A stretch of DNA of 64,000 nucleotides from Pseudomonadales bacterium (GTDB lineage: Bacteria; Pseudomonadota; Gammaproteobacteria; Pseudomonadales; Azotimanducaceae). Shown piece after piece: positions 5,937 through 39,661 of this stretch. Positions within the stretch are counted from its first letter, which is position 1. Each line of letters begins with the position of its first letter. The translations under genes and the position numbers were made by a program. The notes under the pieces were generated by a model. It was not told the DNA's origin, did no database searches, and worked only from the letters and a program-made list of their open reading frames with translations. The stretch spans positions 186,001 to 250,000 of the forward strand of contig JANQPF010000009.1 of NCBI GenBank assembly GCA_028285415.1, read 5' to 3'.

Positions 5937-7127
5937 TCACGGCTTCTCATTCTGAGATTTAACCGGAATCGTCGGCGGCAACTCAGCATAGGCGCGCTCG
6001 AGCGCCGGATCCTCAGCAGCCTGCGCGCGGAGCGGATCCCACAACATGCGGTGTACGGTGGGTGTCCCCGGCGAGTTCTGCAGCAGGTTCCAGGATCCTT
6101 CGAACGGCTCGCCCCGCGCCTGGCCGCCGCTGAAGACCCAATCGACATAAGCCTGTTCCTCCGCGTTGAGGGCAAGCTCCGTCGACTCTTCGAGCTCATC
6201 TCGCAGAACGCGGCCGAGAAATTGATGCGCCTCCATCACCCGGCGGGGGATGCTGACACCCACGTGATCCGCGCCCCGCACCAGATGGTATTCGTGGCGA
6301 ATGTCCCTGTCCCAGAGCACGCGGTGCATGAACTCAGCACCGTCATGCAGGTTGATGTAGTCCTTGTCGCCCACTTCCAGATAGATCTCGAGACCGCTCG
6401 CACGAATGGCATCGGCGTTGCGTGCGGCAACCGTCGCCGGGTTGTCGGCAAGCCAGGCCTCTTCATCTACCGGATTGCCCCAGAGAAGCTGCTCTATCTG
6501 CGGAATCCGATACCAGGTATTGCGTTTGTTGTAGGGCATGCGTTCCAGCGACGGTTCAATGGCAGGCTCCATCGGTGCAATGGCCAGGAACCGCTCTGGA
6601 TGCTTGAACGCAATTTTGAGGGTGCCATAACCCCCCATCGAGATGCCGGTCATGAGGGTTTTGTCCGGCGCCAGGGTCGTCCCGAAGTTGTCGTTTGCCC
6701 ACTTTGGCAACTCGTCCACAACAAACGTTTCCCACGCACCGCGATACCAGCTGCCGCCACCTGAAGTAAACGACACCATGACAAGGGGCGGCAGATCTCC
6801 CGCGTCCCAGAGCGCCTGCCAGATTGGCAGCATCATCGTCAGCGATTCACGGTCCATACCACCACCGTGCAGATGGATGAGCAACGGCAGCTCACCCGCA
6901 TCCGGATCGAAGTTCGGCGGTAGCACGGCAGACATGGGCACGCTCCTGCCCATTGTCTCGGAAGTAAAGTCGAAAAAGTGAACGGTCGCTTTGTCATTCA
7001 TATCGGCGGCGTATCCAGGTAGTGCAATTGCGGCAGCGGTGCTCAGGACGAACGCTAAGCGCCGCAACCCTCTACAACGCGGGGAATTCGACGAAGTCAG
7101 AGGTGTTTCGGTTCTTGAGGTTGGCAT
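5937..7127 (-). CDS. Secreted alpha/beta-hydrolase esterase (esterase D / feruloyl-esterase type)
   Basis: This 396-aa alpha/beta-hydrolase shows the putative-esterase family pattern: oxyanion motif HLHGGG near residue 86, nucleophile Ser163 in GISMGGYG, an acid residue in the EVGDKD region and His in GADHVG. A hydrophobic segment after an Arg pair (residues 21-41, ending in GYAA) looks like a signal peptide, so it probably acts in the periplasm or outside. The ATG has a GGAG site upstream. It is the last gene of the PhyH-PhyH-TonB-carboxylesterase operon, which suggests hydrolysis of an ester substrate or product of that pathway. Confidence 0.82.
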   Translation of the reverse strand: MPTSRTETPLTSSNSPRCRGLRRLAFVLSTAAAIALPGYAADMNDKATVHFFDFTSETMGRSVPMSAVLPPNFDPDAGELPLLIHLHGGGMDRESLTMMLPIWQALWDAGDLPPLVMVSFTSGGGSWYRGAWETFVVDELPKWANDNFGTTLAPDKTLMTGISMGGYGTLKIAFKHPERFLAIAPMEPAIEPSLERMPYNKRNTWYRIPQIEQLLWGNPVDEEAWLADNPATVAARNADAIRASGLEIYLEVGDKDYINLHDGAEFMHRVLWDRDIRHEYHLVRGADHVGVSIPRRVMEAHQFLGRVLRDELEESTELALNAEEQAYVDWVFSGGQARGEPFEGSWNLLQNSPGTPTVHRMLWDPLRAQAAEDPALERAYAELPPTIPVKSQNEKP

Positions 7128-7154
7128 GTTTCGAGCTCCATTTCCTGGTGTTGT

Positions 7155-8705
7155 TCAGCCGTCCCAGACATCTCGGATCGCGCGATCCACGTCGTATTGC
7201 AGCTCGATCTTCTCGTCGAAGATCATGGTGGCGCGCTGTGCGACATCAAAAGGCTGCCACTCCGGCATGTCGGCCGCCGTCGGCTTGCCGTTCCTTGCAA
7301 AATTTACCCACGCATCGCTGACCGTATCCGCCAGCTCCCGTAAAGGATCCAAATCCCCCAGCAAGCGCGCAAACGCTTCCAGGTTCTGATTGGCAAAAGG
7401 CACATCAATCCCATGCATTGCACCAATTGCGCCGTTCATGACGGGAGACGACCAGTTGAATTGGTAAAGGAATGTGCGTCCGTTGCTGTTCGCGGCATGC
7501 GCTTCGGCGGCTTTCACGGTGCCGCGACGAAACATGGAGTCGGTCAGGATCTGGCCGCGCACGTACGCCTTCGAGGCGCCGGGCAACACCCCGCGGTATC
7601 TCTCAAACACGAGCTTTGGCTCGTTTTGCGGCTTCATGAGACCTTTGAACAAACCCATGCACAACCAGCTGGCAAAAGACTCGGGGCCTGGCATGACCAG
7701 CGGAAAGAGCCTGCCGTCTTCCCGTACCGTCCCGATCATGAGATCAACGTTACCGCCAACGCCTGCGCCGAGAGATTCGAGAATGCTCAGCGGCATGAAG
7801 TCGTCACCATAAACACAGCCGATATTGCCGTTGGTCAGAAGCATGCCGTAGGTCTCTTGTGAACCCTTGGCAAGCAGCTTCCTTGCAACTTTCATAGCAC
7901 TGACAGTGTCTCGTGCCGACAGCTGAGAGATCGCCGCGCGATCCCCTGGCGCCACGTCCAAGGCCTTCAGCAGGTCCACGGCAAACTGTTCATGATCCGC
8001 AACCGGAGATCCGAGTTCAGGCGTTCCGCTTTGCGCAATGGCACGCCGAAACAAACCCTGCGCCGCGGGGCTTGCCAGCAGCACCGCAATGCTTTGACCG
8101 CCTGCCGATTCTCCAAAAATGGTGACGTTGTCCGGATCGCCGCCGAAGGTGCGAATGTTCTCCTGCACCCAGCGCAAACCTGACACCTGGTCGAGGAAAC
8201 CCCGATTTGCGCTGCAAAAGCCATCATCAAACATCCCCGGCGCGACAAACGATCCCATCAATCCCAGACGATAGTTAATCGAGACGACAACAACGTCCTT
8301 TTTTGCAAGGTTTGCGCCGTTGTAGATACTGAGAGACCCTGAGCCGGTGGTAAACGCGCCGCCGTGGATCCAGAACATCACCGGCAATTTTGCCTCCGAA
8401 TCCAGCGTCGCGGTCCAAACGTTGAGATTCAGGCAGTCGTCCCCAACGGGCTCGGTTTCCCAGAGCGTTTCCATGAACGCTTTACCGGCTCTGCCAGCCA
8501 ACCACTTGTTGGGGGGCGACTCCTGCTCACAAATGTTGCCAAACCGGGTGGCATCCCTCACCCCGGACCACGCCTCAGGTTGCCTTGGCGGAAGCCAGCG
8601 ATTCTCTCCAGAAACCGGCGCTGCGTACGGGATCCCTTTGAACGCATGAATGCCGTCTTTCTCTTCACCGGTGAGTTGACCCTGACTGATGGTGACGTTT
8701 GCCAT
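7155..8705 (-). CDS. Type B carboxylesterase
   Basis: This 516-aa carboxylesterase/lipase has the HGGAF oxyanion motif near residue 114 and nucleophile Ser200 in FGESAGGQS, the signature of type B esterases. No signal peptide is visible, so it is predicted to be cytoplasmic, unlike the neighbouring esterase. Its ATG shares one base with the stop of the TonB receptor (TAATG), so translation is coupled to uptake. Family length is normal. The ester hydrolysed is unknown. Confidence 0.88.
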   Translation of the reverse strand: MANVTISQGQLTGEEKDGIHAFKGIPYAAPVSGENRWLPPRQPEAWSGVRDATRFGNICEQESPPNKWLAGRAGKAFMETLWETEPVGDDCLNLNVWTATLDSEAKLPVMFWIHGGAFTTGSGSLSIYNGANLAKKDVVVVSINYRLGLMGSFVAPGMFDDGFCSANRGFLDQVSGLRWVQENIRTFGGDPDNVTIFGESAGGQSIAVLLASPAAQGLFRRAIAQSGTPELGSPVADHEQFAVDLLKALDVAPGDRAAISQLSARDTVSAMKVARKLLAKGSQETYGMLLTNGNIGCVYGDDFMPLSILESLGAGVGGNVDLMIGTVREDGRLFPLVMPGPESFASWLCMGLFKGLMKPQNEPKLVFERYRGVLPGASKAYVRGQILTDSMFRRGTVKAAEAHAANSNGRTFLYQFNWSSPVMNGAIGAMHGIDVPFANQNLEAFARLLGDLDPLRELADTVSDAWVNFARNGKPTAADMPEWQPFDVAQRATMIFDEKIELQYDVDRAIRDVWDG

Positions 8706-11026
8706 TACAGATTGGTACCAAACGTCAGGCCCATTGTGCGCGGCGTTCCCAGAGCCGTGCGGTCCGGCGTTCCACCGCCGACGAAAAACGACTGATACAC
8801 CCCGAGGTCAACGCCATAACGTTCATCCGTCAGGTTCTTCACAAATGCCGTCACGAACCAGTTCTCCGTACGAAGACCAAGGGTGAAATTCGTGACATCG
8901 TAACTGTCCAATATGCTCCGACTATCGTCGTAGAGCGGAGATAGCGGCACCAGCGGCTCGACAGCAGTGCGTTGTTCATCGACGTAACGATACTCCAGAC
9001 GTCCGAATAGTTCTCCGATCTGGAGAGGATACGTATAACTCACGAACATCGAAGCCGTAAGCTCAGGTGCGTTGGGCAGCTCAGAATCCTCAACGATGTT
9101 CGCCCCCGGATCCGGATCCGTGAACTCTGCCTCCTGCGAGGTCACTGACAAGCCCATCGACCAGTTGTCGCTCGCCACGTAACTCAGCTGCACCTCGATA
9201 CCGGCAACCTCTGCATCCCCGCCCGAGGTCAGCACGTTAACCGTCGGGGTCGTGATGGCAGGCACCGTCACGTTTGCCTGTATGTCGCTCCAATCTGAGT
9301 AAAACAAGGTTCCGTTGAGGGTCAGGCGACCGTCGTACCAGGTTGTCTTTGCACCCAGCTCGTAGTTGATGAGATTGTCGGATTCGAACGCTCGGTACCG
9401 GCCCGGGTCAGTGGAAATCGTCGCGTTCAGGTTGGATCCACCCGAACGGAATCCTTCGGCTACGTTGAAGTAGTAAAGCTGATTGTCGTCCGGCGCCCAG
9501 CTCACGCCTGCTTTGAAGAGGACATCGTCGTCTGAGGTTGTGCTGCTGCTGGGAGGGATCGTGAGGAAAGACAACACGCCGAAAGCGAGTTCGTCATCGG
9601 TGAACTCTACTTCCTCATCGAAGTAACGGGCACCGAGCGTCAATTCCAGCGTATCCGCAAACTCCCAGTTGATTTCACCGTAAACAGCCGTCTGCTCGAA
9701 GTTCTCCGAAGCGCTCCTGACAAAGGTGTCCAAGCCGGATGCGGGCTGCTGTTCACAATCGAAGGTGGTTGCGGGAAATGCGAGAACCCCGAGCATCAAC
9801 GAATTCAGCAGACCGTTGAAATCCTGCGCCGCCGGGCTGTCATAAGGTGTGCAGACATCCCGTTCACGATCTCTGTAGAAGGCACCGACCGTCCAGTCGA
9901 AATTGCCATCGCCATTGGAGACCAATCTCAGCTCCTGCGAGAACGTCTCGGATTCGTCGTGCACGCTCAGCGTCTCGTTGTTGGAAAATCCCGCCGGGGG
10001 AAATCCAATCAGGGGCAGGAGGAACTCATCCAGCGAGAACGGTACACGCTGAGAGTAATCCTTTTCTTTCTCGAACCACGAACTCACGGAAGTCAGCTCG
10101 GCAAAGCCAAGGTCGTATTTCAAGGTCAACGCATAGAGATCAATTTCAGTGTCGCTGAATTCGTCTTCAAGCAGGTTGGTTTCCAGATCGCCAAGCGAAT
10201 CCACCACCTGGGAGAGACCATCAAGCTCCTGCTCATCATGCATTGCGAGCAGTTCGAGAGAGAAGTTGTCCGATAGCTGAGCCAGCACAGTCGCGCGCAG
10301 CGAAGTGCTCTCGGTCTCGTTGACCCCATCACTGCCGGTGGAGACGTTGTCGATCCAACCTTCTTTATCCGACATGCTGCCGACAATCCGCACCGCCAGT
10401 TTGTCTTCGATGACCGGGAGATTGACCGCGCCCCGAACCAGATAGCCCAGATCCGCGTTCTTTGTATCCAGCGCCGTGACTTCACCCTTCGCTTCGAACG
10501 CCGACAGGTCCGGCTTGTTGAGGATCATCTTGATCGCACCGCCCATTGCACCCTCTCCATAGAGTGTGCCTTGCGGACCCTTCAGAACTTCAACCCGGTC
10601 CAGGTCATAGAGGTTGATGTCCGGCAGTGCACCTGCTCCCTGTATCGCAACGTCGTCCAGATACAGGCCGGTGGTGGATACCGTGGACGCAAAACCATAC
10701 TCATCCTGCGTAATTGCGCTGACGCCCCGCAAACCAACCTTGACTGAGCCGATTCCACTCTGGGTAAAACCAACCCCGCCGATCGAGGTGAGGTAATCTT
10801 CAAAGTTGGTTTTGCCGAGATCATCGAGATCCGCGCCGGTGACGGCGTCGATGGAGTTTGCGACGTCCTGAATGCTTTGCGAGCGTCGCTGCGCCGTTAC
10901 GATGATTTCTTCGATGACGCGAGCGTTCGCAGCAGTGCCGGTATCTTCAGCAAACGCCGAATGCGATCTCGTAAACGCTTCCGCGAAGATCAACAGGGCA
11001 ACCGCCCCGCCGTTAGATAATTTCAT
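8705..11026 (-). CDS. TonB-dependent outer-membrane receptor
   Basis: This 773-aa receptor has a signal peptide (about residues 1-26), a TonB-box-like segment IEEIIVTAQRR and a plug domain (residues ~45-160, including LKGPQGTLYGEGAMGGAI), followed by a beta-barrel that ends in a typical terminal strand with Leu at the C-terminus. It imports bulky or scarce substrates across the outer membrane using TonB-ExbBD energy. A CAGGAGAG site precedes the ATG. It is the third gene of the operon, behind two PhyH dioxygenases, so its ligand is probably the substrate they act on. It is of the catabolic rather than obviously siderophore type. Confidence 0.92.
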   Translation of the reverse strand: MKLSNGGAVALLIFAEAFTRSHSAFAEDTGTAANARVIEEIIVTAQRRSQSIQDVANSIDAVTGADLDDLGKTNFEDYLTSIGGVGFTQSGIGSVKVGLRGVSAITQDEYGFASTVSTTGLYLDDVAIQGAGALPDINLYDLDRVEVLKGPQGTLYGEGAMGGAIKMILNKPDLSAFEAKGEVTALDTKNADLGYLVRGAVNLPVIEDKLAVRIVGSMSDKEGWIDNVSTGSDGVNETESTSLRATVLAQLSDNFSLELLAMHDEQELDGLSQVVDSLGDLETNLLEDEFSDTEIDLYALTLKYDLGFAELTSVSSWFEKEKDYSQRVPFSLDEFLLPLIGFPPAGFSNNETLSVHDESETFSQELRLVSNGDGNFDWTVGAFYRDRERDVCTPYDSPAAQDFNGLLNSLMLGVLAFPATTFDCEQQPASGLDTFVRSASENFEQTAVYGEINWEFADTLELTLGARYFDEEVEFTDDELAFGVLSFLTIPPSSSTTSDDDVLFKAGVSWAPDDNQLYYFNVAEGFRSGGSNLNATISTDPGRYRAFESDNLINYELGAKTTWYDGRLTLNGTLFYSDWSDIQANVTVPAITTPTVNVLTSGGDAEVAGIEVQLSYVASDNWSMGLSVTSQEAEFTDPDPGANIVEDSELPNAPELTASMFVSYTYPLQIGELFGRLEYRYVDEQRTAVEPLVPLSPLYDDSRSILDSYDVTNFTLGLRTENWFVTAFVKNLTDERYGVDLGVYQSFFVGGGTPDRTALGTPRTMGLTFGTNL

Positions 11027-27329: not shown

Positions 27330-28373
27330 TCATTTTTCCAAGCGTGACTCCAAAGGTGCCTTCGTAGCCGCCCGAAACGCCATGGGTGACTGCCCCGCCA
27401 GCGCTTTGAAGGCCGCGGAAAAATTTGCCACTTCGCTGTAGCCCGTGAGGTATGCAATCTCTTTCACCGACATGTGAGTCTCAGACAATAGCTCACACGC
27501 AAGTCGATGACGCGCCTGCACGACAACTTCGCGATAGCTGGTGCCGCGATGGTGCAGCCGACGCTGCAACGTGCGAACGCTCACGCCAAGCACAAGCGCC
27601 ATTTCGCCGACGGTTGGGACCACTCCAGTGGAGGAGAGCACTCGTCCCTGGATCCGCTCCACCAGATCGTTGTGGCTGAACGACTTGATGATGCTCTCCT
27701 CACATTGTCGGCGAGCGATTGTGAAAGCGAGTGGATTGGCGGTGGTCTGAGGCACCTCCAGATAGCGCTGTGGGAATTCGATTTCACAAACCGGTGCATC
27801 AAACTCGAGGGGGCACTCAAACGCCTCGCGGTAACAGCCCAGATGTTCGGGAACCGGGTAGTCGAAAGCGACCCGGGTAGGCTGCAGGTGCACGTTGCGT
27901 AGAAACACGACAAACGAAGACATGGCCGTCTCAACCGCCCACCCGCGCAGCCAGTCCGGCACCTTCCCGGCGTACGCCACAACCTCGCCATAGATCAGGT
28001 GGCAGGATGCACCGACAATCGATTGCGTGATCTTTACCGGCACCGCGAGAAGGTCCTGATACTCGATAGAAAACGCGAGCGATTCCCCGATGTCAGCTGC
28101 GGTCATCGCTGCCAGGCCCGCCATCCCGCTGTTCAGAAGATGCATGTTTTCGGGCTGCACGAAGCCAACTTCCTTGACCCCAAGCTCCAGTACAAAGGCC
28201 GCGATCACACCATAAAACTCTTCCGCCGAAACGTAGTGTCCTGCATCGTGAAGCGCGGCGCGCGTCAGCCCGTGGCGACGCAGAATATCAGCCGCGTCAT
28301 GGCCCGCGGCTTCCACCCGGTACAGAGGGTCGAGCAAATAGACCGCCGGTGCGCGATTCCAGACTCGGAACAT
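27330..28373 (-). CDS. AraC family transcriptional regulator
   Basis: This 347-aa regulator has an arabinose-binding-like N-terminal domain and a C-terminal AraC domain (MALVLGVSVRTLQRRLHHRG, then IAYLTGYSEVANFSAAFKALAG). The ATG at 28373 lies within the first copy of a 21-bp direct repeat and has no ribosome site, so it is probably autoregulated and perhaps leaderless. It is divergent from the Rieske-hydrolase-Rieske operon and should activate it. Confidence 0.88.
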   Translation of the reverse strand: MFRVWNRAPAVYLLDPLYRVEAAGHDAADILRRHGLTRAALHDAGHYVSAEEFYGVIAAFVLELGVKEVGFVQPENMHLLNSGMAGLAAMTAADIGESLAFSIEYQDLLAVPVKITQSIVGASCHLIYGEVVAYAGKVPDWLRGWAVETAMSSFVVFLRNVHLQPTRVAFDYPVPEHLGCYREAFECPLEFDAPVCEIEFPQRYLEVPQTTANPLAFTIARRQCEESIIKSFSHNDLVERIQGRVLSSTGVVPTVGEMALVLGVSVRTLQRRLHHRGTSYREVVVQARHRLACELLSETHMSVKEIAYLTGYSEVANFSAAFKALAGQSPMAFRAATKAPLESRLEK

Positions 28374-28467: not shown

Positions 28468-29544
28468 ATGTTTGCCCAACAAAACTGGTACGTCGCAGCC
28501 CGGTCTTCCGAGCTATCGCGTGAGCCCATCGCAAGACGAATCCTGGAGCAGGACCTGGTGCTCTTCCGGGACAATACGGGCGAGGCCCGGGCGCTGCACG
28601 CGATGTGCGCTCACCGCGGTGGTAATCTCGGCCGCGGACGAGTCGTCGATGGCTGCATCGAATGCCCATGGCATGGCTGGCGCTACGCGGGTGATGGTAC
28701 CTGCACGCACATTCCATCAATTGGTCCCGAGGGCAAAGTTCCGAACCTCGCACGCGTACCCTCATTCCCCGTCCACGAGGCACAGGGCTTCATTTACGTC
28801 TGGACAAGCGCAGAGCACGCTCCGGACTGGACCCCACGCTCGCACGATTTTTTCGATGCTGATTTTCACGAAGCCGGCCCTGCCCTCAATCAAAAGGGCA
28901 ACTTCATCAACACCATCGAAGGAGCTTGTGACGACAGCCATGTTTTCATAGCTCACCGCAAGACCATTGGACGCGGCATGCCAGCGCAGCTGGCTCCGAT
29001 CAGCATCGTGGACGAGGACGCAGACGGCCGGGGACTGGAAGCCGCCATGCGCTGGCCGGCCGAGCAACAACGTCCGCTCAACGGTTTCAACAAGTGGCTC
29101 AACAACCTGCTACTGGGCACGACTGAAAACACGCTGACGGCCGACAAGACTTTCCGCGTCGAGATGACCTGTCTCGTCATCCACAAGTACGTCAAAGCCG
29201 ATGGTAACGAGCTCATCATCTATGCCTTTGTCACGCCCAGCGACGCAACGCACAACTGGTTTTTCGCAGGATTTATCGACACCAACCCGCGTCGATCACG
29301 ACTGAGTAAGCTTGCCTACCGCATGGTGCTCGGCCGCCAGCTGCAGGATGTCTTTGCCGAGGACCAGGACGTCATCGGCACGGCACTCAGTGACGACCTT
29401 CCGGGCGGACATCCGCAACCCGTTTCGGTCAACGCCGACCTGGTGGGCCTGGGCTTTCGTCGCATGTACGCTCGACAAGTGGAACGCGAAGGTGCAGTGC
29501 CTGCGTGGCCCGTAGCGCGCAGCAAACCGCAACCGGTGGCGTGA
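28468..29544 (+). CDS. Rieske non-heme iron oxygenase
   Basis: This 358-aa oxygenase alpha subunit has an intact Rieske site (CAHRGG at about residue 48 and CPWHGW at about 67), and catalytic-domain iron ligands in CDDSHVFIAH. It starts close to the N-terminal phrase NWYVAARSSEL, typical of VanA/phthalate-oxygenase-like O-demethylases and ring hydroxylases. It needs an electron-donating reductase, and none is encoded nearby. It is the first gene of the operon and is followed by an overlapping hydrolase (TGATG). Confidence 0.88.
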   Translation: MFAQQNWYVAARSSELSREPIARRILEQDLVLFRDNTGEARALHAMCAHRGGNLGRGRVVDGCIECPWHGWRYAGDGTCTHIPSIGPEGKVPNLARVPSFPVHEAQGFIYVWTSAEHAPDWTPRSHDFFDADFHEAGPALNQKGNFINTIEGACDDSHVFIAHRKTIGRGMPAQLAPISIVDEDADGRGLEAAMRWPAEQQRPLNGFNKWLNNLLLGTTENTLTADKTFRVEMTCLVIHKYVKADGNELIIYAFVTPSDATHNWFFAGFIDTNPRRSRLSKLAYRMVLGRQLQDVFAEDQDVIGTALSDDLPGGHPQPVSVNADLVGLGFRRMYARQVEREGAVPAWPVARSKPQPVA

Positions 29545-30374
29545 TGCCGGGGCTCATCAGCACAAACGGCGTTGTGCTCGCCTACGACAGCTACGGCCAG
29601 CCTGGCAATCGCGCGGTTGTACTGCTGCAGGGTCTGGCGGAAGGACGGTTGTTCTGGCCGGAAAGCACCATCGAAACGCTCCTCGACCAGGGGTTCTACG
29701 TCGTCGCCGTGGACAATCGTGATATCGGCGACTCCACCATCCTCGAAGCGCACGGTTCGGCGTATACGCTGGAGGACATGGCTGCGGACACGATTGGTCT
29801 CCTGGACGCGCTGCACATCCGCAAGGCAGACGTGATCGGATATTCGCTTGGCGGCATGATCGCCCAGGTACTTGCGCTGAAGTTTCCATCGCGGGTAAAG
29901 AGTCTAGTTTTGACGATGACTACCAGCCGCGACCCAACCCTGCCAACTGGCGATAGCGCCGCGCTGGCAGTGCTGATGAAGATGGCCGACGCAACGAACA
30001 CCACTCCCCCGCGAGAACGCCTTGCGGCCCTATGGCGGGTCATCGCAGGTGAGTTCGAATACGCCAGACAGGACGAAACCAACTTTGTCGATCTACTCCT
30101 GAAAACGGGGTACCGACCCGCGGCTGTCGCCCGGCAGCTGAATGCCGGGCTGACCACGCCGCCGTGCTACGACAAGCTTGGCCAGCTGGCCTTGCCGGTA
30201 ACGGTTGTGCACGGGGAGGCTGATCGCATTTTCCCGACAGCCCACGGAGAGGATCTGGCCAGACGCATCCCAGGGGCCAGTTTGAGATGGCTGCCGCGCG
30301 GCGGACACGTTCTGTGCCGCCACACCGCGTCGTCATTTAACGCTGCGTTACTGCACCACTTCTGTTCCAAATGA
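29544..30374 (+). CDS. Alpha/beta-fold hydrolase
   Basis: This 276-aa alpha/beta hydrolase starts at ATG 29544 (MPGLISTNGV), overlapping the upstream stop. It has nucleophile Ser in GYSLGGM, an Asp in HGEADRIFP and catalytic His in RGGHVL. It resembles meta-cleavage product hydrolases and esterases of the same fold; which one is not decidable. It sits between two Rieske genes, with its stop overlapping the next start (ATGA). Confidence 0.85.
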   Translation: MPGLISTNGVVLAYDSYGQPGNRAVVLLQGLAEGRLFWPESTIETLLDQGFYVVAVDNRDIGDSTILEAHGSAYTLEDMAADTIGLLDALHIRKADVIGYSLGGMIAQVLALKFPSRVKSLVLTMTTSRDPTLPTGDSAALAVLMKMADATNTTPPRERLAALWRVIAGEFEYARQDETNFVDLLLKTGYRPAAVARQLNAGLTTPPCYDKLGQLALPVTVVHGEADRIFPTAHGEDLARRIPGASLRWLPRGGHVLCRHTASSFNAALLHHFCSK

Positions 30375-31456
30375 GGCACCAGTCGATGACCCTCGGACTT
30401 TCGCCCCACGCGTATCGGGATTCCAAAATGCTCGATGCGGAAATAGAAACGCTCTTCCAACGCGAATGGTTGTGCATCGGAAGGGAAACCGACTTCGCTG
30501 AACCCGGAAGCTATGTGACGTGCCGGATTGCCGCTCAACCGGTTGTCGTATGGCGCGGCAGCGACGGACAACTCCGTGCGTTCGAGAACGTGTGCCGCCA
30601 CCGTATGTCGATCATCGCCTCAGACTGCGGCGTCGCGGATCAGCTTCAGTGCCCCTTTCACGGTTGGACCTACGGCTGGGACGGCTCCCTCAAAGGTGCA
30701 CCCGGCGGCAGGGACATCGTCGCTTCTGGTGAAGTTCTGCTACCCCAGTTCAGCATCGAAACCTGGATGGGTTTTGTGTTCGTGAACCTCGATCCCCAGG
30801 CACAACCGCTGGCACCAAGGCTCACCCGGGTGACCGACATGATTGCTCCGTACGCGCCGGAAGAGTTCAAAACCAGCTTTCGCGACGATGGCGGACGGGT
30901 GGGTGCAAACTGGAAGCTCATGATGGAAATTGGCCTGGAGTCATATCACTTTCCTTTCGTCCACGAATCGACTCTGGCAGCGAATCTGCGCGGCGCGCCG
31001 AATCCTCCAAGCGGCACTGGCGCGTGGACGGTATCGGTGGAACCGCGTACGAAAACGTTAGCCGCACAACCTGACGATCCTGCGGCCTTATCCGAAGCGC
31101 ACCGTGCTACAACCTATACATTCGGGATATTCCCGGCCACGGTTTTCAATATCGACGTCGACAACATCGTTTGGTTCTCCGTCTTTCCAGACCGCGCCGA
31201 CCTGACGTCCTCCTGCTTTGGTGGCGCCTCTCGTCACGCCGGATCCATGCGGATTCTCGGTGACAACAAACCCAGCTCCGTTGACGAGTATTTGACCTGG
31301 GCGGCTCAACTGGGGGCCGAAGACAACCTGGCCTGCGAACGCGTGCAACAGGCATTGCAGGGCAAATTCGTCAAAGCCGGCCCACTGTTGCCCGAGAAAG
31401 AAAATGGCGTCATCGAATTTCACGCGTACCTGCGTGAGCGCCTCAACCTCAAATAG
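30371..31456 (+). CDS. Rieske non-heme iron oxygenase alpha subunit, intact
   Basis: This 361-aa ring-hydroxylating oxygenase alpha subunit has an intact Rieske motif (CRHRM and CPFHGW) and catalytic-domain segment NWKLMMEIGLESYHFPFVH, with Glu at the usual bridging-acid position and two His ligands. It overlaps the upstream hydrolase by 4 bp and is followed by the Rieske-less homologue 2 bp later. Close coupling suggests the two proteins act together. Confidence 0.88.
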   Translation: MRHQSMTLGLSPHAYRDSKMLDAEIETLFQREWLCIGRETDFAEPGSYVTCRIAAQPVVVWRGSDGQLRAFENVCRHRMSIIASDCGVADQLQCPFHGWTYGWDGSLKGAPGGRDIVASGEVLLPQFSIETWMGFVFVNLDPQAQPLAPRLTRVTDMIAPYAPEEFKTSFRDDGGRVGANWKLMMEIGLESYHFPFVHESTLAANLRGAPNPPSGTGAWTVSVEPRTKTLAAQPDDPAALSEAHRATTYTFGIFPATVFNIDVDNIVWFSVFPDRADLTSSCFGGASRHAGSMRILGDNKPSSVDEYLTWAAQLGAEDNLACERVQQALQGKFVKAGPLLPEKENGVIEFHAYLRERLNLK

Positions 31457-31458
31457 GA

Positions 31459-32661
31459 ATGAACATGTCACTTTCCGCCATTCTTACAGATGACGTGTGC
31501 GAGCAAATACGCGCACCCATTCAGGAGGCCACGACGCTTCCTAGAGAAGCATTCACCGCGGAGCCCTTTCTCGAAGCCGAGCGCGAACGCATTTTCAGCG
31601 CGTCCTGGACGGCGCTCTACTTCACCGAGCTCGTACAACCCGGCGAGGCCATTCCCGTCGATCTCGCCGGCATTCCATTACTGATCGTGCGCGATACCGA
31701 TGGCGCGTTGCGGGTGTTCCACAACATCGTCCCCTACGACGGATGCCTTGCGGTCATCGAAAGGGCGAGGGATTTGACGGCAATTACGACTCCCTATCAC
31801 GGCTGGCGCTACAACCTGAGCGGCAAGCTGGTGGCCACGCCTTACTGGAGCGGCAGCGTTGCGGGAACGAACCTGGATGCGCTGGGTGACCGGCCCCGGG
31901 ACCTTGCGGAAGTACGTTCTGCGACGTGGGGGCCGGTGTTGTTCGTCAACTTGTCAGAACATCCTGCAGATTTCGACGCTCATGTTGCCCCGCTCGAGCG
32001 GGCCCTCGAAGGCTGGGATCTGGCATCGCTCGGGATCGCCCGAGACTCAGGCGGCGAGCCGTTGCTCTACCCTGAAGATCTGGCTACCAATTGGAAAACT
32101 CACCTGGAGAACTGGGGGATTAACGTCCTGCACGAAGCGTTTGTACACGATCTTTATCATGCATCACCCGAAGTGCCGCGCATGCGGGAGGACGGTGAGA
32201 AAACGTTCGAGGACTACGTCGACAATACGTTCATGGCGCTCAAGTACGTCGAAACCGACTTTCCGTCAACGTACGGCGAGATTCCGTTCCCCCGCCTCGA
32301 CAAAGACCCAGCAGAACCAAGCCGGCACGGTTTTTTCGGTTCATTCATGCCCAATCTGCATTTCGGCATCTTCAACAACCTCCTGCACCTGATTATCAGC
32401 AATCCCGTAACCCCGGCAAGAACTACCACGCTGCGGGCGCAGTTTTACCGAAGGGACGCGGCGCAGGCCGAAGAATACGCCGAAGCACGCTCTTTCCTGG
32501 CACTGGGATTTGTCGAAGCCGGAAACGAGGACGGCCGAATAACCGAGGCCGTGCAGAGCGCGCGACAATCGCCCGCCTTCCCAACGCAGTATTACTCCGC
32601 CCACTGGGACACAATGCACTATCACTTCAGTCGTTGGGTGCTGGACCAGCTCGTTTCCTGA
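31459..32661 (+). CDS. Rieske-oxygenase homologue with a destroyed Rieske site
   Basis: This 400-aa protein aligns with Rieske oxygenase alpha subunits end to end. The ATG at 31465 has better spacing to AGGA and may be the true start. The first cluster motif, normally C-x-H-R, reads V91-P-Y93-D; the second, normally C-P-Y-H, reads T111-P-Y-H114, so three of four Fe-S ligands are absent. In the catalytic domain His225, His230 and a candidate Asp358 remain, but the bridging Asp is Asn222. The frame and flanking motifs are intact, so this is not a frameshift. It may be a non-redox partner of the upstream Rieske protein or an oxygenase fed electrons in another way. Confidence 0.82.
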   Translation: MNMSLSAILTDDVCEQIRAPIQEATTLPREAFTAEPFLEAERERIFSASWTALYFTELVQPGEAIPVDLAGIPLLIVRDTDGALRVFHNIVPYDGCLAVIERARDLTAITTPYHGWRYNLSGKLVATPYWSGSVAGTNLDALGDRPRDLAEVRSATWGPVLFVNLSEHPADFDAHVAPLERALEGWDLASLGIARDSGGEPLLYPEDLATNWKTHLENWGINVLHEAFVHDLYHASPEVPRMREDGEKTFEDYVDNTFMALKYVETDFPSTYGEIPFPRLDKDPAEPSRHGFFGSFMPNLHFGIFNNLLHLIISNPVTPARTTTLRAQFYRRDAAQAEEYAEARSFLALGFVEAGNEDGRITEAVQSARQSPAFPTQYYSAHWDTMHYHFSRWVLDQLVS

Positions 32662-36708: not shown

Positions 36709-38298
36709 TCAGCGAACCGTCCGCATTCGGGCAAACTGTGCGGCGATGCACTCGTCATAGACGTGCATGATCCGGTCAACCCCATCCTGGCCGATGAGCA
36801 GGGGGTTTTCTCCAACTCCCCTGCTCCGCTCACGAAGCTCAAAGTTACCGACCACCCAGGCATGCGTACTGATCAAACCCTCGACGCCCTCCGCCCGGGC
36901 CTGGTTCCAGAACTTGTGCAACGACTCGTGCATTTGCGCTAGCTCTCCGGGATTGACCGGCAACGCCTGACCACCCCACATGCCAATCTTCCGATCCCTG
37001 CCGTTGTGCTTGACGGTGATGATGGACGACAAAGTACCGGGCGTGTGGCCGGGTGTAACAATAAACCGCACACGGGCACTTCCCATCTTGATCGTCTGAC
37101 CGTCCGCCACCACCAGATCGCGTTCAGGTTGAACAACGAGCTCTAGATGCATGCCTGAACCCGCCGGGATCCCGATCATGCCACTGTCCGTAGCGACGGC
37201 GAGCGGTACCCTTGCGTCGTACAACGTCTTCACGTTTGCGGCCGCTATTTCACCCTGCACCCGATAGCGGGTCGACTGAGCATCGGCTGCCGGCACGGGT
37301 TCGTTCCAGGAGTCCACCACCCCGGGCACCGAGCACAAGCGCTCGATGGGCAACAGTTCCAGCTCTTTGGTAAACAATTCTATGAAGGTGCGCTTTCGGA
37401 TCGCCAGCGTCGGCACAACAACCACGTCGTTTTCGAGCAACAGATCGACAAACGGTTGATCCACGGGCTGATCTGCCACCACATGCTGCAAAGTCGCCGC
37501 ACCCGCTTCCACCGCGCCACGCGCGTACTCGAGCTCGTGAGCATGCGTTGTCACCTGCAGTCCGTTTCGTTTCGCTTCCGCGACTACCGCTTGCTGAAAC
37601 TCCTGCCAATCGGCGTACCAGAGCATGCTCCTGACCATGACGCTGCCACGACTATCCAGTGCGGTTTTGATCAAATCAGCACCTTTCGAAACCGCCTCGC
37701 GGACGTGCGCAATACCGGCTTCTTCCGACATGCCCGGCTTGAGGGTGAGTTCACCATCCCACGGCGGAATCATCCGCTCCGCAATGAATTGAGGCATCGG
37801 GGCAATGACACCATGACCGATGAACACGGTAGGTGCCGCATCGATCTCTTCCGCCAGGGCACGCGTGTTGTACTCGAGACTCGGGCCTCCCATGGAGACA
37901 ACGCCGGTGACACCCGAGCACATGTTTGCCCGCAGCGTGTCGGGAATGTGCGCTTTGATGAACGCAATCTCCTCTTCGTAGGGCACTTTGTCAGTGAGAT
38001 CAAAAAAGGCGGGGCGCGTGTACATACGGCCGGAGGTCATGAAGTGGACGTGAGAATCGATGAGCCCCGGCACAATCCACTTACCGCTGACGTCTACCAC
38101 TGCCGCGTTCTCGGGGACCACGACATCTGCACCTACGGAAACGAACTTATCGTCCTCGACAAGAACCGTGGCGTTTTCGACGACCCCGCCCAGCGTACCG
38201 TCGATCAGGGTTGCGCCCTGATATGCGGTAGTCTCTGCAACGGCAGAGCCCGCGATGAACGAGATTGTGATCGAGACAATCCAGCGGATGAAGATCAT
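36709..38298 (-). CDS. Chimeric protein: amidohydrolase joined to C-terminal half of a metallo-beta-lactamase fold
   Basis: This 529-aa protein starts at ATG 38298 after GGGGGAGGG, with a signal peptide (residues 1-21). Residues ~22-388 are an amidohydrolase with H83-x-H85, H252/H254, H272 and D371. Right after the Asp loop the sequence turns into the later part of a metallo-beta-lactamase: PERDLVVADGQ, TPGH418TPG and STH479AW. The usual amidohydrolase C-terminus (GxIxxGxxADL) and the lactamase HxHxDH region are both missing. The frame is continuous, with no internal restart. It looks like a deletion fusion of two genes, or a novel architecture. It is the last gene of the aromatic operon. Confidence 0.78.
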   Translation of the reverse strand: MIFIRWIVSITISFIAGSAVAETTAYQGATLIDGTLGGVVENATVLVEDDKFVSVGADVVVPENAAVVDVSGKWIVPGLIDSHVHFMTSGRMYTRPAFFDLTDKVPYEEEIAFIKAHIPDTLRANMCSGVTGVVSMGGPSLEYNTRALAEEIDAAPTVFIGHGVIAPMPQFIAERMIPPWDGELTLKPGMSEEAGIAHVREAVSKGADLIKTALDSRGSVMVRSMLWYADWQEFQQAVVAEAKRNGLQVTTHAHELEYARGAVEAGAATLQHVVADQPVDQPFVDLLLENDVVVVPTLAIRKRTFIELFTKELELLPIERLCSVPGVVDSWNEPVPAADAQSTRYRVQGEIAAANVKTLYDARVPLAVATDSGMIGIPAGSGMHLELVVQPERDLVVADGQTIKMGSARVRFIVTPGHTPGTLSSIITVKHNGRDRKIGMWGGQALPVNPGELAQMHESLHKFWNQARAEGVEGLISTHAWVVGNFELRERSRGVGENPLLIGQDGVDRIMHVYDECIAAQFARMRTVR

Positions 38299-38317
38299 GT
38301 CACCCTCCCCCTTCGAG

Positions 38318-39661
38318 CTAAACCTGAGTGACCGCACGCTTCGCTGACGTATCTCTGGCACCAATCGCATACACCGCAATCGCCGCAATCAGCATCGGGA
38401 GTGCGCCAAAAACAAACAGCGTCGAGATACTCAGTTCCATCGCGAGCAAGCCCCCGACCAGAATGGGGCCGATGATTGCACCAAGCCGGCCAACGCCGAG
38501 CGCAAATCCCAGCCCCGTCGCTCTTGCCGTGGTGTCGTAGCTCTCGCTTGCAACCGCATTCAGTCCGAACTGACAACCGATTGAGGTAAATCCTGCAAGG
38601 AAAAGAACGAGCAAGAGGACAGGCAGAGAAACCGCCGAATAACCGATCGAGGCGACGATGAAGGATGCGGCCAGGAAGCCAGTCGTCATCGAACGAATAG
38701 CACCGAACCGGTCAATGGCAACGGCCATCACAAGGCCGCCGATGGTGCCGCCGAGTGCAAGCAGAACGCTTGCCAGAATGGCGCGATCCAGCGGGAAACC
38801 AGCCGCTTCGAGCACGGAGGGCAGCCAGCCCGTCATCGCAAAGATTGTCAGGAGATTAGCAAAGAACACGATCCAAAGGAGCAGCGTCAGACGGGTACGC
38901 CCGTCCGCAAACAGGGCTTTGATGCCCGAATGCAGCGCAGGCTGCTGGTTCGTCACAAACGTCGAGCCAGGCGGAATATCGCGTTCCGGCGCAAGCCTCT
39001 GCATCGTCTTCAGCAGCGCTTCGTCTTGCGGCGCCCGTAAGACGAGAAGCCGCGGAGACTCCGGCAGCCAGAGCGCAACAATCGGCAGCATTACCAGCGG
39101 CAGCACTCCACCCAACACGAACACCGCCTCCCAGCCGAAGACGCTCAACAGCCCAACTGACGCGAGCCCGCCAACCACGGTGCCGAGCGGCAGGCCCGTG
39201 AACATCACCGTCATAAGCAGTGCCCGGCGCCTTGCTGGAGCAAACTCCGCCGTCAGGATGTTGATGGTGGGCATGACGCCACCGAGACCGAGGCCGGTCA
39301 TGAATCGAAAGATGAAGAGATCCGCCGTATCGCTCGATAACGCCGTCAAGAGCGATCCCACTCCCATGATCAGGATGGAACCGAGGATGACGGGCTTTCT
39401 ACCTAATCGGTCGGCAAGCGGGCTGCCAATCAACGCACCCAGCATGAGGCCTACCAGTGCCGCCGACAGGAGCTGACCCATCAGCTCAGGCGGAATCGAA
39501 AACTGTTCGGTCAAAAGCGGTGCCACGTAGCCGATACTGGCCGCGTCGAAGCCGTCGATGACGGCAAGAAAAAAGCAGATGGCAACAACCCGCCATTGCA
39601 AGGCACCAATCGGTCGAGAGTCGATGATGTCATCGACAACAAGCTGCGGGGCCGATGACAC
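38318..39661 (-). CDS. MFS transporter, aromatic acid:H+ symporter (AAHS) type
   Basis: This 447-aa permease has 12 predicted helices, the AAHS motif DGFDAASIGYVAPLL in helix 1 and DRLGRKPVILG in the 2-3 loop. It is expected to import an aromatic acid with protons across the inner membrane. It begins at GTG 39661, one base from the extradiol dioxygenase stop. Its place in the operon, with a TonB receptor and ring-cleavage genes, supports aromatic uptake. Confidence 0.88.
   Translation of the reverse strand: MSSAPQLVVDDIIDSRPIGALQWRVVAICFFLAVIDGFDAASIGYVAPLLTEQFSIPPELMGQLLSAALVGLMLGALIGSPLADRLGRKPVILGSILIMGVGSLLTALSSDTADLFIFRFMTGLGLGGVMPTINILTAEFAPARRRALLMTVMFTGLPLGTVVGGLASVGLLSVFGWEAVFVLGGVLPLVMLPIVALWLPESPRLLVLRAPQDEALLKTMQRLAPERDIPPGSTFVTNQQPALHSGIKALFADGRTRLTLLLWIVFFANLLTIFAMTGWLPSVLEAAGFPLDRAILASVLLALGGTIGGLVMAVAIDRFGAIRSMTTGFLAASFIVASIGYSAVSLPVLLLVLFLAGFTSIGCQFGLNAVASESYDTTARATGLGFALGVGRLGAIIGPILVGGLLAMELSISTLFVFGALPMLIAAIAVYAIGARDTSAKRAVTQV

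Follow-up and report, generated by a model that had tools for sequence, protein, structure and literature searches.

The window analysed here, a stretch of 64,000 nucleotides from a Pseudomonadales bacterium (GenBank assembly GCA_028285415.1, contig JANQPF010000009.1, positions 186,001 to 250,000), encodes at 31459..32661 of its plus strand a protein of 400 amino acids with an ATG start, referred to here as RoX, which has the predicted fold of a Rieske oxygenase without the motif of a Rieske cluster. Its open reading frame passes the Pfam cut-offs both for the Rieske domain (PF00355, 34.1 bits over residues 50-129) and for Ring_hydroxyl_A (PF00848, 49.7 bits over residues 207-398). An AlphaFold2 model of the single chain, built from a 19-row alignment, had a predicted local distance difference test score (pLDDT) of 88.8 and a predicted template modelling score (pTM) of 0.90, and Foldseek searches with this model placed the carnitine monooxygenase CntA first (6zgp, E 1.4e-25; 6y8j, target TM 0.82), with Rieske oxygenases in all 50 rows among the matches listed. 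The two Pfam domains and the match to CntA thus give RoX the two-domain architecture of a Rieske oxygenase alpha subunit, and the former cluster domain is itself modelled at block mean pLDDT values of 92-97 over residues 51-130.

In an ordinary Rieske oxygenase, the mononuclear iron of each subunit receives its electrons through a bridging acid from the cluster of an adjacent subunit. The residues of this path were located in RoX by aligning a profile of its clade with PDB sequences, among which CntA served as the reference; the roles of the CntA cluster ligands, bridging E205 and iron ligands are those given in the excerpted text of PMC7948474, whose numbering equals chain numbering minus 20, an offset of our own calculation. 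Where the first cluster motif C-x-H belongs, RoX has V91-P92-Y93 (31729..31737), and where the second motif C-x-x-H belongs it has T111-P-Y-H114 (31789..31800), such that V91, Y93, T111 and H114 pair with CntA C86, H88, C106 and H109, and H114 is the sole survivor of the Cys-x-His...Cys-x-x-His set that holds a [2Fe-2S] cluster. Opposite the bridging E205 stands N222 (32122..32124), neither Asp nor Glu, three residues ahead of the first iron histidine. Because every E205 mutant of CntA made in that study was inactive (PMC7948474, in the part available, which cites E205D and E205Q from another study), an Asn at this position should not support the normal relay. The candidate iron ligands are retained at the level of residues as a 2-His-1-Asp triad: H225 and H230 (32131..32148, a segment that includes the clade-specific E226) align with CntA H208 and H213, and D358 (32530..32532), within an E-D-x(7)-Q motif, aligns with D323. 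The preliminary description of this locus had named the same substitutions and the same retained residues, every one of which is present in the DNA, and its candidate iron ligands, Asp358 included, do align with a known site. It had also placed an intact Rieske protein 2 bp upstream; that protein, the 361-residue RoA (30371..31456, plus strand; PF00355 68.3 bits, PF00848 77.1 bits), indeed ends just ahead of the RoX start at 31459 and carries all ligands.

One scan of genome contigs with exact peptide patterns, by which distant members will have been missed, yielded 16 relatives of RoX at 36-70% identity, and RoX-type proteins occur in Pseudomonadales, Methylobacter, Leucothrix, Nitrospinaceae and uncultured Alphaproteobacteria. 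An alignment of 19 proteins, which includes RoX of the window and three paralogues from the same genomes and excludes the truncated L055, spans the same range of identity to window RoX, and in all 19 the cluster His, the second Cys and the bridging acid are lost together. Its invariant positions include H88, N89, P92, Y93, D94, H114, N222, H225, E226, H230, R241 and D358. Four further intact members, found when 16 genomes of an uncultured order were searched, brought the clade to 23; this count leaves out a truncated gene (L055/L131), a fragment (L132) and the broken copies of L136 and L135, the latter being the gene also seen in L052. Y93, H114, N222, H225, H230 and D358 are each found in 23 of 23 members and Cys111 in none, while the first cluster Cys is lost in 16 and survives as C91 in seven. 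All 38 ordinary relatives, which are fetched matches of the RoX and RoA searches thinned by hand, keep C-H-C-H, the bridging acid and H-H-D. Order matches at 26-31% identity (L011-L022), considered as possible members, possess the cluster ligands and lie outside the clade.

New residues have been fixed as well. E226, which neighbours the first iron His in sequence, R241, H387 and W130 are each present in all 23 members, while no fewer than 12 of 13 outgroup rows have another residue at these positions, and the clade has its own motifs at the old cluster pocket (H-N-x-x-P-Y-D-G-C) and at the iron site (N-x-x-H-E). C96 (31744-31746), five residues past the lost first ligand, is a Cys in 22 of 23 members and in 0 of 13 outgroup rows; a further metal site could be built from it, D94 and H114. 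In the samples searched, the clade is scarce and scattered: it was found in one of 293 and one of 398 genomes, both times the window itself, in one of 11 genomes of the genus to which locus L054 is assigned and in one of 63 of the Leucothrix family, each time the starting genome. In the order of genome G303 it occurs in 11 of 16 genomes, six of which were known before, with a truncated gene in G308 and a fragment in G487.

In a tree of 57 rows from which the ligand columns had been removed, the 19 members were monophyletic with bootstrap support of 100/99, and the nearest ordinary oxygenases were eleven L012-type rows joining at 99/96. RoA and five relatives formed a separate branch several supported nodes away, and with RoX and RoA on different deep branches, an origin of RoX as a decayed duplicate of RoA is ruled out. 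A second tree of 36 rows again united the 23 members in a single branch (99/97), over which the state at C91 requires at least four changes. Because all members of this branch share the loss of the cluster His, the second Cys and the bridging acid, while the C91 state changed repeatedly, those three losses look ancestral to the clade, and the first Cys, useless by then, appears to have varied later. Ratios of nonsynonymous to synonymous substitution rates (dN/dS) of 0.119, 0.113 and 0.119 in three unsaturated pairs indicate purifying selection; the value of 0.05 for the window and L040 is near saturation (dS 4.2) and unreliable. When the corresponding ratios of proportions (pN/pS) were computed for the Rieske-like domain, with a roughly cut boundary, and for the rest of the protein, the two closest pairs gave 0.141 versus 0.142 and 0.140 versus 0.129, so that both parts are equally constrained. 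With 23 intact members of the same pattern, and with purifying selection, RoX is neither a lone decayed copy, the outcome that the preliminary description had seen as fatal to its proposal, nor a product of sequencing error.

Broken relatives of RoX do occur. In L136 (G483) a relative with two in-frame stops reads LRQ in place of LHE, so that its first iron His is gone; judged by its sequence, it illustrates genuine decay within the clade. In L052 (G305, 6949-9581) two RoX genes stand in tandem, the upstream copy frame-broken (LHS for LHE) and the downstream one intact. Two short fragments, 39-47% identical to RoX, lie upstream of the intact copy in L049 (2906-3177, directly after an amidase gene, and 6552-6761) and are remains of another RoX copy.

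A first alternative is a mixed trimer in which RoX joins RoA as a specialised subunit: RoA would supply the cluster and RoX would alter specificity, stability or regulation, with catalysis of its own being optional. The gene order of the window and its relatives speaks for such an arrangement. RoA lies directly upstream of RoX in six of 16 full-length loci (the window, L040-L043 and L045), with spacing that ranges from a 4-bp overlap to a 2-bp gap, and all six belong to the window's branch of seven members, the seventh (L044) being without it. In the window the two genes share a block with an alpha/beta hydrolase (29505..30374, plus strand; PF00561, 97.1 bits), a second intact Rieske oxygenase of the VanA type (28468..29544, plus strand; PF00355 82.6 bits, PF19112 37.3 bits) and an AraC-type regulator on the minus strand (27330..28373; PF12625, PF12833). 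Relatives of the hydrolase stand beside RoA in L041 (50%) and L045 (37%), and relatives of the VanA-type oxygenase (50-78% identity) and of the regulator (42-66%) are present in L040-L043 and L045. RoA-type proteins turn up only alongside RoX, in just one order genome out of 390, the one that contains the window, and at 44-66% identity in five of 16 other RoX genomes; in the remaining RoX genomes with a RoA match, the best one by E-value is 33-37% identical. Because RoA-type proteins are as rare as RoX, these data support a functional link of RoA and RoX in the window's lineage, through one pathway or possibly one complex. A clade that shares the losses beside an intact copy was what the preliminary description had suggested looking for, and the homologues at the same locus (L040-L043 and L045) display the same losses beside RoA and have not kept the ligands.

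Several findings oppose a mixed trimer as a property of the clade. No intact Rieske oxygenase adjoins RoX in ten of the 16 full-length loci (L044 and L046-L054), although three of these offer little upstream sequence (L046 1.2 kb, L048 2.0 kb, L044 2.8 kb). RoX is not the sister paralogue of RoA and, because the bridging acid is lost, RoX iron could not take electrons from the RoA cluster in the usual way. Furthermore, four of the 16 whole genomes that encode RoX yield no RoA match at E <= 1e-20, and each of the four has exactly one PF00848 protein, RoX itself. One of these, 'Nostoc sp. CHAB 5844' (G307, locus L054), was dropped from the partner argument because the G+C content of its contig NODE_99 (62%) differs from that of four other loci of the assembly (37-44%), which makes contamination probable; L054 was retained in alignments and trees. 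In the three that remain, a Nitrospinaceae metagenome-assembled genome (G297), G299 and the isolate Leucothrix arctica (G300), VanA_C was likewise found in none. RoX evidently persists where no intact oxygenase partner of the PF00848 or VanA_C types is found, and because these genomes lack any other such protein among those detected, it cannot in general be the partner of an intact oxygenase. The specialised-partner proposal of the preliminary description thus fits the window's branch, L044 excepted, and fails for the clade, and a mixed trimer is considered rather unlikely.

The same three genomes bear on a second alternative, in which electrons would reach RoX from a separate Rieske ferredoxin or reductase docking at the emptied domain. 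A precedent is the caffeine demethylase NdmCDE, in which, according to the accessible part of PMC4408171, NdmC, a non-heme iron oxygenase, has no Rieske cluster and is served by an extra one on the reductase NdmD; NdmC also works with the glutathione S-transferase (GST)-like NdmE. Nine Rieske frames of G297, G299 and G300 were scanned (L111 of G299 was left out): eight small ones, within a range of 107-211 amino acids, and one of 550 amino acids in G297 that is glutamate-synthase-like. Four of the small proteins (L097, L099, L101 and L105) match oxygenase-ferredoxin or NirD models under the cut-off, among them L097 with 98.3 bits to HcaC (cut-off 150) and L099 with 77.2 bits (cut-off 113), and a ferredoxin could serve as electron donor for RoX. 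L110, however, is a cytochrome bc1 Rieske subunit and, because L102 and L098 pass the NirD model, some of these proteins are nitrite reductase subunits. Moreover, no ferredoxin, reductase or other redox partner gene is common to the RoX loci among the neighbours scanned, and the bridging position is Asn in every member. An external donor of this kind is given a low probability.

The genomic contexts of RoX are diverse. The block in the window lies amid a second VanA-type oxygenase, a flavin adenine dinucleotide (FAD) hydroxylase, glyoxalase-family proteins and amidohydrolases, surroundings that look like aromatic catabolism; a 559-residue frame on the minus strand (36709-38388) has an N-terminal amidohydrolase domain (PF01979) and an end that, by eye alone, resembles a metallo-beta-lactamase. 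In Leucothrix arctica (contig C42, L113-L115), RoX is found inside a biosynthetic region with a modular reducing polyketide synthase that includes an aminotransferase domain, an aromatic amino acid lyase, a TauD-type oxygenase, a methyltransferase and a haem-oxygenase-like iron protein (PF14518). Elsewhere the gene immediately ahead of RoX encodes an amidase (L048, L050) or an amine oxidase (L051, and L052 by similarity). A protein of 423-426 amino acids is encoded near RoX, with a DUF1579-like gene between, in L047 (9731-11011) and L046 (2958-4229); it has no Pfam match, is 57% identical between Leucothrix and Methylobacter, and the 426-residue neighbour was modelled from a two-sequence input at pLDDT 41. 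Neither an NdmD-like reductase nor a GST-like NdmE was present among ten genes scanned around RoX in the window; the neighbours scanned at the other loci include no NdmD-like gene and a single GST gene, which ends 11 bp ahead of the RoX paralogue L088 (L119 of G295, 6909-8812). This gene recalls the use of NdmE by NdmC, by analogy, and may be a coincidence.

Because the cluster and the bridging acid are gone, the triad never varies within the clade and other positions have become newly fixed, an iron enzyme that takes its electrons from the substrate, or needs none, is favoured. RoX would then be a mononuclear-iron enzyme on the Rieske-oxygenase fold in which the path from Rieske cluster to iron is no longer used, a reading to which we assign a slightly better than even chance. 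It agrees with the second proposal of the preliminary description, an iron enzyme with another electron source, and widens it to an enzyme with no external source; iron binding and activity are predicted. RoX would still trimerise as its relatives do, with the dead Rieske domain serving as a structural cap and subunit contact. In Rieske oxygenase structures, the cluster His to which H114 corresponds touches the bridging residue of the adjoining subunit; His114 and Asn222 may thus face each other across subunits, their contact kept as a structural one. One Fe(II) would be bound at H225, H230 and D358. The Rieske-bridge path would not be needed for electrons: the substrate could supply them, as it does in extradiol and RPE65-type iron dioxygenases, or the reaction could be redox neutral. 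A two-centre machine would in this way have been disconnected, its cluster pocket frozen as a new conserved motif and its catalytic domain reused as an oxygenase or lyase; in the window, RoX would act in the pathway of RoA, plausibly on the product of RoA. RoX genes occur both in blocks of catabolic genes and in one polyketide cluster. That RoX proteins constitute a self-sufficient family of Rieske-fold iron enzymes, needing only O2 and substrate for turnover or doing no redox chemistry, is a serious possibility to which somewhat less than an even chance is given.

A third alternative would make RoX a pseudoenzyme with a ligand-binding or structural role, its triad kept for folding or for another metal. 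The loss of the relay is consistent with this idea, as is the fact that we know of no characterised member of the clade. It has to contend with a His-His-Asp set preserved in all 23 members despite identities as low as those given above, and with the new fixation of E226 and other residues; of the two broken copies, that of L136 lost the first iron His, and that of L135 kept it. A pseudoenzyme is regarded as decidedly improbable. Other observations weigh against the iron-enzyme assignment as well. C91 is kept in seven members, and hence the old cluster site has not been uniformly stripped; between the window and L040, the Rieske-like domain is under somewhat weaker constraint than the rest (pN/pS 0.290 versus 0.233). 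The model is lower over residues 221-250 (block means of 71, 56 and 73), with N222, H225 and H230 in the first of these blocks, where confidence is fair. Two of the three partnerless genomes are metagenome-assembled and may be incomplete, and all three encode small Rieske ferredoxins that could donate electrons. The adjacency of RoA in all but one of the seven members of the window's branch and the confinement of RoA-type proteins within the order to the window's genome point to a RoA-RoX link in that branch. Finally, no member of the clade is known to us as a characterised protein, and iron binding, the trimer and activity are predictions from sequence and model.

The mechanism taken to define this large family is the coupling of the Rieske cluster to the mononuclear iron via a bridging acid. 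A conserved natural branch that lacks the relay and has the iron site would provide a test of the purpose that the relay serves and of whether the fold can activate O2 unaided, and RoX-type enzymes could yield reductase-free biocatalysts. RoX also carries a warning for annotation, as a protein can exceed the Pfam cut-offs for both domains and be without the cluster ligands.

Among the best-ranked papers of the open-licence PMC literature, to which the search was confined (subscription papers lay outside its scope), no described counterpart of RoX was found. Several known systems share some of its features. RoA is of the same fold family and adjoins RoX in six of 16 loci, but belongs to a different deep branch and has a complete set of ligands. 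In the chlorophyllide a oxygenase of Micromonas, each of two chains has reportedly lost one of the two centres. This enzyme is a Rieske oxygenase in two polypeptide chains (PMC9615114, in the part available); in contrast, the RoA found beside RoX is intact and RoX also occurs without it. NdmC is, on the accessible portion of its description, the nearest functional precedent, as a family member that like RoX has no Rieske cluster, but RoX retains the whole fold of the Rieske domain (PF00355 over residues 50-129) and has lost just the ligands and the bridge. As far as the available parts of these two sources extend, neither NdmC nor the Micromonas enzyme combines, within one chain, loss of the bridge with a Rieske domain that is emptied yet still under selection. 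By both profile (E 7.5e-30) and fold, the best PDB relatives of RoX are CntA and the quaternary-ammonium Rieske oxygenases, such as stachydrine demethylase. CntA has the same two domains and iron triad at 17-19% identity in structural alignments; it differs in possessing all four cluster ligands and the bridging E205, where RoX has one cluster ligand and no acid.
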